64,000 nucleotides of DNA from positions 1,178,001 through 1,242,000 of the forward strand of contig NZ_JAVFVR010000001.1 in the NCBI RefSeq assembly GCF_030929595.1, given 5' to 3'. The stretch comes from Flavobacterium sp. LHD-85. GTDB taxonomy: Bacteria; Bacteroidota; Bacteroidia; Flavobacteriales; Flavobacteriaceae. The translations under genes were made by a program, and so were the position numbers. Below the pieces are notes generated by a model, which was given only the letters and a program-made list of their open reading frames with translations, was not told the DNA's origin and searched no databases. Below are positions 29,885 through 31,852 of the stretch, one piece after another. Within the stretch, counting starts at the first letter, position 1. Every line of letters starts with the position of its first letter.

Positions 29885-30331
29885 TTAAACCGTTAATTTC
29901 TTTTCGTCCAAAATTTTTACAAAATGAAATCCTTTTGGTGCATAACCCTGATTATAATAAAATCTATGGGCTCCAAAATTTCCTGTAAACGCATCCAAAA
30001 CGATACTACTGCAATTCAACTCTATTGCTTTTTTCTCTACATATTCCGTAAGCATTTTTCCAATTCCTTTGGATCTGTATTCAGGATTTACAACAAAATT
30101 ATCTATCTCCAGATATTTTCCTGTCCAAAGTTTTGTTGCCGACCAACATCCCGTTAGACCAAGACAAGCCTCTCCTTCAAATACCGCAATTTGAATATAA
30201 TTATGAGAAAGCATTTCAAAGAGAAATCCGTGATACTTCTCTAGGGATATATTTGGATATAAAAATCGAATCGTATTTATTTGAGCTGTCATATCTTCAA
30301 TGGTCGTGAGCTCTCTTATTTGTAAAGTCAT
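29885..30331 (-). CDS. GNAT-family N-acetyltransferase
   Basis: A 148-residue acetyltransferase. The acetyl-CoA pyrophosphate loop is in VVNPEYRSKGIGKMLTEYVEKKA, and the C-terminal NFGAHRFYYNQGYAPKGFHFVK is typical of GNAT motif B. I start at ATG 30331 (TLQIRELTTIED follows); a longer frame to 30415 adds a non-homologous hydrophobic leader and would include the promoter seen at 30352-30381. Substrate unknown; homologues acetylate small amines or protein N-termini. Confidence 0.85.
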   Translation of the reverse strand: MTLQIRELTTIEDMTAQINTIRFLYPNISLEKYHGFLFEMLSHNYIQIAVFEGEACLGLTGCWSATKLWTGKYLEIDNFVVNPEYRSKGIGKMLTEYVEKKAIELNCSSIVLDAFTGNFGAHRFYYNQGYAPKGFHFVKILDEKKLTV

Positions 30332-30551
30332 GTTATAAACGAAATAGAATTCAAAAATACTTAAAATATAAGGCAAGCCAAGATGAATTAAACTTTGAAA
30401 AATAAATTTTAACAAAAAAAGAAGAATTATTGTACAAAGTAATCTTAAAATACTTATCTTTAACTAATTATAACACGTTTTTTTAACAGAACATGTGAAA
30501 TATATAAAATTTAGTTAAAAATTATGTAACATTTTTTTTACAGTCTTTGAT
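30332..30551. other. AT-rich spacer upstream of the RNA array
   Basis: No gene is seen here. It holds the GNAT promoter near its left end and A/T-rich sequence including a T8 run at about 30532-30539, just before the candidate promoter of the hairpin array. Confidence 0.5.
30352..30381 (-). promoter_or_regulatory. Promoter for the GNAT gene
   Basis: On the minus strand TTG (30379-30381) and TATTTTTG (30352-30359) are separated by 19 bases, matching the Bacteroidota consensus. The transcript would start about 14 bases before the ATG at 30331, which supports that start. Confidence 0.65.
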
Positions 30552-30559
30552 TAAATTTG
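30552..30559 (+). promoter_or_regulatory. Candidate -7 box for the hairpin-array RNA
   Basis: TAAATTTG fits TAnnTTTG. A transcript starting about seven bases later would begin at the first stem-loop of the array. No clear TTG lies at the expected -33 position; a T run is there instead, so the promoter is tentative. Confidence 0.45.
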
Positions 30560-30563
30560 TTTC

Positions 30564-30910
30564 AAAGGGAATGAGAAAGCTAGATACAACCCTTTTAAAA
30601 AAAGAAGCACTGGGACTAATAAAGCTTGTTTGTTCCCATAAAAGACAAAGCACAAGGGATTGATTCAGCTGTAATGTAACCCTAATAAAAACAGAGCACT
30701 GGGACTAATAAAGCTTGTTTGTTCCCATAAAAGACAAAGCACAAGGGATTGATTCTGCTGTATTGTAACCCTTAAAAAAACAGAGCATTGGGATTAATAA
30801 AGCTAGTTTGTTCCCATGAAAGACAAAGCACACAGAGTTATCTGTCTATTTTTATAAAATGGTAGTGATTCTCAACTTAACTGTAATTTGAGAATCACCA
30901 TTTTATAAAA
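30564..30910 (+). ncRNA. Tandem stem-loop array, candidate structured non-coding RNA
   Basis: Six stem-loops lie in tandem at 30564-30595, 30611-30638, 30655-30683, 30700-30727, 30744-30772 and 30789-30816. Two types alternate: A (AGGGATTGATTC...GTAACCCT) and B (TGGGACTAATAAAGC...GTTCCCA). The A+B unit repeats with an exact 89-base period (units start at 30607, 30696 and 30785). A and B are themselves diverged copies, sharing GCAC-GGGA-T-AT-AGCT-GT-CCC. Stop codons in the repeats rule out a useful ORF. A TAAATTTG box precedes the array and a long hairpin ends it. Strand choice follows those signals. Function is unknown; it may be a regulatory RNA or a repeat of another kind. Confidence 0.65.
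30853..30907 (+). terminator. Strong hairpin at the end of the array
   Basis: The left arm 30853-30875 pairs with 30888-30907 over 20 base pairs with a short bulge, around a 12-base loop. T-rich sequence follows. It is the likely 3' end of the array RNA. Confidence 0.7.
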
Positions 30911-30945
30911 ATATTTTTAAAAAAGAATAAAACTTCCAATAAAAA

Positions 30946-30970
30946 GAAAAGCCAGCGTTAGCTGGCTTTC
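30946..30970 (-). terminator. Terminator of the ATP synthase operon
   Basis: GAAAGCCAGC and its complement form a stem with a four-base loop. On the minus strand it is followed by TTTTCTTTTT. It lies 22 bases after the atpG stop. Confidence 0.85.
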
Positions 30971-30991
30971 TTTTGTTTATTATAGAATAGA

Positions 30992-31852
30992 TTATCCATT
31001 CAAAGCTTCTGCTCCACCAACAATTTCCAAAATCTCACTTGTAATTGCAGCCTGACGAGCTTTGTTATAAGTTAATTTCAATTGGTTTCTTAAAGCAGTT
31101 GCGTTATCTGTTGCTTTGTGCATTGCTGTCATACGCGCTCCATGCTCAGAAGCAAATGAATCACGAATACCTTTGTACAATTGTGTTTTTAAAGACTTCG
31201 GAATTAAAGCCAATACGATTTCTTCTTTTCCTGGCTCAAAAATGTAATCTCCAGAAACTGCAGCTGCATCGGTATTAATAGGCGCTAACGGTAAAAACTG
31301 CTCTACTTGAACAATTTGAGTCGCAGCGTTTTTAAACTGATTGTAAACTAACTCAATTCTGTCGTATTCTCCAGTTAAAAACTTTTGTGTTAAATCATCT
31401 GCAATTCCAGCAACATTTTCAAATGTCAAATTATCAAAAATTGCATTATGATGACCGTGGATTTTATGCGTTTTAATTAAAGCATCTCCACCTTTTTTAC
31501 CAATGGCAAAAACGTCAACTTGCTTTCCAGCATAAAAATCAGTACGATTCTTAATCTCTTTAATAATATTTGAATTGAAAGCACCACATAAACCTCTGTT
31601 TGAAGTTACAGCAACTAACAATACTTTTTTTACTTCACGTTGTGTAGTGTAATCTCCTCCTATTTCACCTTCTAGTGTAGCAGAAAGATCTTGCAATAAC
31701 TCCGTTAATTTCTCGGCATAAGGACGCATTGCAGTGATTGCATCTTGTGCTTTCTTCAGCTTTGCAGCAGAAACCATTTTCATAGCCGATGTAATCTGCA
31801 TCGTCGATGAAACGGAAGTAATTCTATTACGGATTTCCTTTAAATTTGCCAT
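30992..31852 (-). CDS. atpG: F0F1 ATP synthase subunit gamma
   Basis: A 286-residue gamma subunit, the central rotor shaft that couples the c ring to the F1 head. Both terminal helices are intact: ANLKEIRNRITSVSSTMQIT at the N-terminus and TLTYNKARQAAITSEILEIVGGA-like sequence at the C-terminus. The NRGLCGAFNSN motif is present. It is the last gene of the cluster, 88 bases after atpA, and a terminator follows, so beta (atpD) and epsilon (atpC) are encoded elsewhere. Confidence 0.97.
   Translation of the reverse strand: MANLKEIRNRITSVSSTMQITSAMKMVSAAKLKKAQDAITAMRPYAEKLTELLQDLSATLEGEIGGDYTTQREVKKVLLVAVTSNRGLCGAFNSNIIKEIKNRTDFYAGKQVDVFAIGKKGGDALIKTHKIHGHHNAIFDNLTFENVAGIADDLTQKFLTGEYDRIELVYNQFKNAATQIVQVEQFLPLAPINTDAAAVSGDYIFEPGKEEIVLALIPKSLKTQLYKGIRDSFASEHGARMTAMHKATDNATALRNQLKLTYNKARQAAITSEILEIVGGAEALNG

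Follow-up and report, generated by a model that had tools for sequence, protein, structure and literature searches.

An apparent, hitherto undescribed non-coding RNA gene in Flavobacterium: a tandem array of two alternating hairpin types beside atpG

Few RNA regulators are, to our knowledge, known in the Bacteroidota. Among RNAs built from repeats, those of the CsrB/RsmZ type carry many hairpin-borne copies of a motif, with GGA in the loops, in one stand-alone RNA and titrate CsrA/RsmA; type III toxin-antitoxin arrays (toxI) consist of a promoter, tandem RNA repeats and a hairpin, with a ToxN-like toxin gene downstream. The FopS RNAs of Bacteroides are 14 separate sRNAs of ~65-70 nt with a single-stranded 5' part and one terminator hairpin (PMC11697453), and Rfp18 of F. 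psychrophilum is reported as an sRNA with several stem-loops that is conserved in the genus (PMC9723704). Here we describe a Flavobacterium locus that resembles the titrating RNAs in layout, is a member of no family tested, and appears, with good support from comparison of relatives, to be a non-coding RNA gene that has not been described before.

The locus lies in a 64,000-nucleotide stretch of Flavobacterium sp. LHD-85 DNA (the window), where a first-pass annotation had picked out six alternating stem-loops with an 89-base period. These stem-loops are real: positions 30565-30831 hold six half-units in the order A-B-A-B-A-B with a period of exactly 89, the 89-base copies start at 30565, 30654 and 30743 (start-to-start distances of 89 and 89), and Tandem Repeats Finder gives the array a score of 411 at period 89. 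Each copy comprises one type A half-unit (approximately GGGATTGATTCAGCTGTAATGTAACCCTTAAAAAAACAGAGCA) and one type B half-unit (approximately GGGACTAATAAAGCTAGTTTGTTCCCATAAAAGACAAAGCA), the second and third copies being 80% and 78% identical to the first. With covariance models built from 31 type A units (R1) and 20 type B units (R2), all six are recovered on the plus strand: A1, a variant first unit, at 30567-30608 (R1, 51.6 bits), B1 at 30612-30652 (R2, E 4.9e-12), A2 at 30656-30698 (R1, 65.6 bits), B2 at 30701-30741 (R2, E 4.9e-12), A3 at 30745-30787 (R1, 66.5 bits) and B3 at 30790-30830 (R2, E 1.9e-12). The exact period holds for the window and is local to it, since half-unit spacings under 70 bases in 52 stand-alone loci of the genus (the setting is defined below) range from 31 to 50, with a mode of 45. 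The window contains another tandem repeat, at 366-496, with period 61, 2.2 copies and 94% matches.

On one side the array is flanked by a GNAT gene and a flippase-like gene and on the other by atpG, all three encoded on the minus strand; the plus strand has no gene downstream of the array. No ORF of 60 aa is present in the array, and the longest stop-to-stop runs at 30541-30920 are 40, 29 and 28 codons on the plus strand and 54, 42 and 29 on the minus strand, as expected from the earlier remark that no frame is open. Because neither the period nor the indels come in threes and there is no ORF, a coding origin was rejected; the array is the product neither of chance nor of coding.

Seven bases before the first GGG, at 30552-30559 on the plus strand, lies the box TAAATTTG, which had been noticed upstream of the stem-loops and which we take, from the Bacteroidetes consensus, to be a promoter -7-like box. 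The pattern TAnnTTTG is found in 46 of the 52 stand-alone loci, no more than 130 bases before the first detected unit, and its distance to the next GGG is 7 bases in 43 of these 46, 6 in two and 8 in one. Further upstream (30480-30551, plus strand) is a conserved promoter region with the A/T-rich boxes GAAATATATAAA and AAAATTATGTAA; such paired boxes match in 47 of 52 loci, which is weak evidence in DNA this rich in A/T because the pattern is too loose (one of its alternatives, moreover, could match nothing). Mean pairwise identity across 15 genomes, that of the window among them, is 0.39-0.54 at 30330-30479, rises to 0.78-0.84 at 30480-30554 and 0.90-0.97 over the array, and is 0.80-0.95 at 30830-30929, the low values at both far ends of this profile arising partly from indels and from the cut of the slices. 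The block of conservation thus begins at the promoter and spans promoter, array and closing hairpin. A conserved box CAC(T/C)AAAAGTGGGTATTG precedes the array promoter in loci L045, L046, L049, L050, L162, L175 and L279 (GTAGG in L279) and is possibly a regulator site of this lineage's arrays.

Two further structures follow the array on the plus strand. The first is a small stem, ACAGA/TCTGT, at 30832-30845, in whose place relatives carry other complementary pairs such as AGTGG/CCACT, GCGG/CCGC and GTAGCA/TGCTAC; 49 segments yielded 28 distinct best stems, and 10 of the 49 beat 95% of their own shuffles. The second is the closing hairpin (30847-30913), a probable 3' end or terminator. A hairpin had been annotated here with 20 bp, and it is present and longer: its outer arms, 30847-30863 and 30897-30913, form 17 bp with 100% complementarity, and an inner pair, 30865-30879 with 30884-30898, forms 15 bp with 93%. 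Across 31 aligned sequences, 97.4% of 587 cells are paired and 19 are changed on both sides against 5.0 after shuffling; the covariation score is reached by 0 of 500 shuffles and lies above slid controls, both of which controls can be inflated by kinship or by drawing the structure from the same sequences. Of the 52 stand-alone loci, 46 match a strict pattern for this hairpin and two more do so with one base different; the other four end instead in an intrinsic-terminator-like GAGCC...GGCTC plus T run.

Each unit hairpin combines a short closing stem, in which the G-run lies, with a loop centre (A/U)GCU and an A-rich linker that terminates in GCA. In an alignment of 53 units, the G-run, the AGCT at the loop centre and the GC(A) of the linker hardly vary; in 212 unit pieces chosen for such a centre, it is AGCT in 170 and TGCT in 39. 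The first-pass annotation held that differences fall mostly in loops while stems are kept. This is so between the window copies, in which the variable columns of type A number 12 of 21 in the interior, 7 of 17 in the linker and 1 of 6 in the stem, and those of type B 2 of 18, 1 of 16 and 0 of 8, respectively; in relatives, by contrast, the pairs beside GG/CC do change, and the changes are compensated. We tested this at fixed positions, in place of a weaker free-register test, on 203 of the 212 unique pieces, the nine others being dropped because they lacked a flanking base or a GG/CC run (one of them, AAAGAG...CTCTAC, can be seen by eye to pair). Outside GG/CC the pair is A-T in 109 pieces, T-A in 63, T-G in 3 and C-G in 2, with 26 unpaired, so that 177 are paired against 98.2 in shuffles; the third pair, inside GG/CC, is formed in 191 against 175.3; and in both cases 0 of 5000 shuffles reach the observed value, odds that are overstated because the units are related. 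With 27 representatives less than 80% alike, the third pair forms in 21 against 15.9 (3 of 10000 shuffles) and the outer pair in 19 against 13.7 (124 of 10000). Offsets -2, +3 and +4 show no excess pairing across all 203 pieces; there is a slight excess at +3 within each type (446 and 113 of 5000) and some at -2 among the 27 representatives (283 of 10000).

Smaller curated alignments agree: 96.0% of type A cells are paired against 92.5 when shuffled (1 of 500) and 89.2% of type B cells against 86.2 (0 of 500). A putative inner helix drawn for type B is 93% paired with no pair changed on both sides. In the free-register test, 81 of 2000 shuffles equalled or exceeded the observed value for 28 variant pieces (22 of 2000 for stems of at least 4 bp), a set that includes two truncated pieces unable to form the stem; the figures were 57 and 75 of 2000 for 18 pieces less than 85% alike, and 2 of 200 for 184 pieces with GGG and CCC. 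Folding energy is no evidence for the units: the array folds no better than its shuffles (z -0.55; reverse strand 0.44), single type A hairpins do no better either, type B hairpins reach z -1.87 at most, and the whole transcript reaches z -4.0 when the closing hairpin is counted in. The proposal that selection has acted on plus-strand RNA structure is therefore supported by covariation, which relatives display in the unit stems, the small stem and the closing hairpin, and by the block of conservation that begins at the promoter; folding of the array alone, which is unexceptional, lends it nothing.

Compensatory change of this kind would also keep a DNA palindrome, and the units are near-palindromic DNA with a central AGCT and few G-T pairs, as would suit an operator array, REP/BIME-like palindromes or a recombination site. 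We regard such a DNA-level role as very improbable, since the spacing and the GGG-to-CCC length vary, the adjacent small stem and closing hairpin covary as well, the spacing to the promoter box is fixed and the array occupies a single locus in its own genome. In that genome R1 matches this locus alone at E below 0.08, by which membership in REP/BIME repeats was rejected, and the array DNA has no other copy, the second match being the closing hairpin against itself. A CRISPR array was rejected because the 89-base copies are contiguous, without spacers, and 78-80% identical to the first. The locus thus matches neither of these known DNA-level repeats, a class of match that had been named as grounds for abandoning an RNA reading.

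Comparison with described RNAs was equally without a match, in keeping with the first impression that the array is unlike RNase P RNA, tmRNA or 6S RNA. Rfam 15 at gathering scores returned 0 matches in the 64-kb window, and the 31 sub-threshold matches (E up to 5) within 30400-31000 fall mostly on the closing hairpin or the stretch after it, with none coming close to its gathering score. Flavo-1 (RF01705), with which identity had been left open, is likewise a flavobacterial structured RNA, but Rfam does not find it in the array, and identity is excluded; in seven related loci it was the only Rfam match and lay away from the units. That match, at L175:7220-7297 (76.3 bits), sits between genes that by eye are flippase-like and dUTPase-like.

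The array shares with CsrB/RsmZ RNAs a repeated hairpin-borne motif, a single stand-alone RNA and a variable copy number, but its loop centre is (A/U)GCU with an A-rich linker, and its G-run is in the stem. Membership was rejected because there are no GGA loops, the G-run lies in the closing stem and the own genome lacks CsrA (PF02599 gave no match there and a control signal in 3 of 14 genomes). With toxI it has in common a promoter, tandem RNA repeats of similar size, a hairpin and, in the leaders described below, a small gene behind, but no toxin gene follows the window array and the leader genes look like secreted peptides; because the next gene is atpG on the opposite strand, type III toxin-antitoxin membership was rejected (the ToxN family, PF13958, had no match in the own genome, nor in any control genome). 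FopS is likewise a multicopy RNA family of the Bacteroidota, with an RRM protein (RbpB) in its system as in the present genome, but it consists of separate sRNAs rather than tandem hairpin units in one RNA (PMC11697453). Rfp18 is similar as a Flavobacterium sRNA with several stem-loops and conservation within the genus, a comparison made by description and not by its sequence (PMC9723704). Identity was rejected because R1 at E 0.1 finds nothing in the genome of F. psychrophilum DSM 3660 and R2 nothing in its 8.9-kb atpG locus. Titles and abstracts of the best-ranked open-licence papers, without supplements, hold no description of this RNA, which leaves its absence from print unproven.

A covariance-model search of flavobacterial genomes, suggested by the first-pass annotation, found units in 66 of 249 Flavobacterium genomes: at E 0.001, R1 matched 60 and R2 58, with 52 shared, under stricter filters that lose weak matches. 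A search at E 0.01 with the array DNA itself found matches in 57 of 199 genus genomes, the weakest of them close to that limit; in genome G136 the array lies at G136:C1:1204271-1204570 on the minus strand. In a family-wide sample of 299 genomes, R1 at 0.01 gave 5 matches, two of them Flavobacterium; the three in other genera (E 0.002-0.01) were rejected as being at chance level for that number of genomes. Among 80 named loci around atpG, 14 have units at E 0.01 by R1 or R2, a count that is blind to arrays lying over 4 kb away from atpG; among the named species with units are F. tagetis, F. sharifuzzamanii, F. tyrosinilyticum, F. collinsii, F. salmonis, F. oncorhynchi and F. fryxellicola. In ten whole genomes reached through named loci, R1 matched 6 at E 0.1 (F. 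succinicans only at 0.007) and found nothing in F. psychrophilum DSM 3660, F. branchiophilum, F. ammonificans or sp. A45, although the last has B-type units. The type A pattern had 0 matches in viral contigs, and the single type B match there was put down to chance, as it falls inside a long phage frame, capsid-like by eye, with no array around it; with no match in phages or plasmids, a viral or plasmid origin was rejected.

Units occur in two genomic settings, which we examined through fetched loci, not every match, in 63 of the 66 unit-bearing genomes (G150, G151 and G157 were left out). In 52 of the 63, a stand-alone array lies at the flippase/GNAT/atpG locus, on the opposite strand from whichever of these genes the fetched DNA includes, and has from 1 to 23 detected half-units, counts in which some first units are missed by the profile and two loci span two arrays far apart. 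In 10 of the 63, units lie in a transcript leader that is divergent from a gene for a TPR and AraC-type protein; one to seven units stand there, in most cases before small secreted-peptide-like genes, often with a GG leader. Genome G112 alone has intact units in both settings at the loci examined. The regulator matched HTH_18 above cut-off in two of three cases tested, the third being cut short, and TPR partly below cut-off. Genomes G061 and G149 have leader-like units with no TPR-AraC gene found in the fetched DNA, and with them the leader setting comprises 18 clusters across 12 genomes. Several leader peptides have a double-glycine leader, exporter or HlyD genes are nearby in some, and one peptide matches the bacteriocin IIc family weakly, below its cut-off (E 0.0035). 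In 61 genomes searched, a GG peptide was found in 8, all of them among the 15 with units (Fisher p 2e-6, not corrected for kinship). Genome G232 (L090, L091) has four single-unit leaders, each of which precedes small signal-peptide-like proteins and diverges from a TPR-AraC-like gene; one of these leaders is followed by Porph_ging and carboxypeptidase-regulatory-domain proteins.

In 17 of the 18 leader clusters, a same-strand frame of at least 45 aa opens no more than 450 bases away, not all of these being sure genes. The box TAGTTTTG is found 59-87 bases upstream of the leader units in 13 clusters and 216 in one, and TTCTCGAGAA occurs within 300 bases downstream, before the gene, in 9. Put-like hairpins are antitermination elements made of two hairpins, and the units might similarly be RNA-polymerase-modifying cis elements near the 5' end of leader and array transcripts alike. 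Their position close to a promoter-like box, at 7 bases in most arrays and at 59-87 bases in 13 of 18 leader clusters, and the TTCTCGAGAA element ahead of the gene would fit, but as many as 23 half-units go far beyond two hairpins and the window array has no downstream gene on its own strand, only atpG on the other, so that we consider this explanation improbable.

Synteny links the two settings, in that leaders with peptide genes lie 1.4-2.2 kb from atpG in G237, G233 and G200/F. fryxellicola, and in Flavobacterium sp. HJJ atpG and an exporter have the array between them. These positions, together with the absence of intact leader units from array-bearing genomes where leaders were seen, could mean that the array descends, as a relic or by exaptation, from a peptide leader that lost its peptide gene beside atpG, and acts in cis only, for example by insulating convergent transcription at the atpG 3' end. 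A relic of that kind is unlikely, given that conservation is higher in the array than in the upstream DNA, that the array has a promoter box of its own and reaches 23 detected half-units, and that genome G066 has a second array elsewhere with an intrinsic-terminator-like end. The latter, L279 (G066:C30:53500-58500), is likewise stand-alone, sits at an unrelated locus and shows five AAAGCT hairpins (counted by eye) together with a TGAAATTTG box and the end GAGCC...GGCTC with a T run.

The reading that we favour, tentatively, is a stand-alone RNA that offers many copies of a binding site and serves as a decoy for an RNA-binding factor; transcription, factor, titration and target are what we infer. 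Judged by the box 7 bases before the GGG, transcription would start just upstream of the first hairpin, run through the alternating A and B hairpins and end at the closing hairpin, giving an RNA of ~350 nt. Its many copies of one site would then titrate the factor from other RNAs with the same site, in principle as CsrB does, the site being the module that occurs once or a few times in the 5' leaders of secreted-peptide operons. Because array and leaders share this module, that regulon is the likeliest point of action or origin, and the range of half-unit number among stand-alone loci is as expected of a titrating array.

The strongest point against the decoy is that six peptide leaders in array-bearing genomes (G000, G015, G042, G052, G053 and G057) have no intact unit by eye, and in those genomes a decoy directed at the leaders would be left without its target. 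G015 and G057 have a unit remnant only, beside an otherwise similar leader, and none was seen in G042, G052 and G053; in the own genome, G000, the leader unit is degenerate, with AAAAGATTG...TGATTTT in place of AAGGGATTG...TAACCCT, a change that keeps pairing but could be A/T drift. That leader belongs to a bacteriocin-like locus (L129:1-6944, C1:190.5-200.5 kb) with genes named by eye as a GG-leader peptide, HlyD and a C39-type exporter, divergent from a TPR-AraC regulator; the unit is of type A. The near-exclusivity of the two settings, with G112 alone of 63 in both, also counts against the decoy, as do the lack of CsrA and the type A hairpins that fold like shuffles. The one RRM protein in the own genome (G000:C1:934163-934372) shows no connection to the array. 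The array may by now have other targets, may have taken the place of the cis units, may base-pair or may be a cis relic.

Base-pairing would make the array a source of trans-acting sRNA, perhaps cut at the linkers into ~44-nt units, whose loops or linkers pair with several mRNAs and whose repetition sets dosage. The near-invariant loop centre and linker speak for this, and multicopy sRNA families are known in the Bacteroidota, FopS being an example (PMC11697453), but no promoter or terminator is seen per unit and the occurrence of the same units in cis in leaders would be odd for an antisense seed; we think it somewhat unlikely. Returning to the decoy and its origin, we read the array RNA as derived from, or ancestral to, the leader module. 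It is a doubtful but attractive possibility that a cis leader module of secreted-peptide (bacteriocin-like) operons was released and amplified into a stand-alone, trans-acting array at a fixed chromosomal site, which would make it a new family of multivalent regulatory RNA with its own putative RNA-binding partner. Regulatory RNA may here be moving between cis and trans with both states in living species, and an array that shares its unit with secreted-peptide leaders would offer a handle on post-transcriptional control in Flavobacterium and a ready bait for its putative RNA-binding protein.

Arrays can also bracket other genes. At L037:2587-9439 and L039:2113-8954 (array-strand coordinates), a ~7 kb block of genes that are ABC-transporter-like by eye lies between two arrays, which together flank the block and the GNAT gene.
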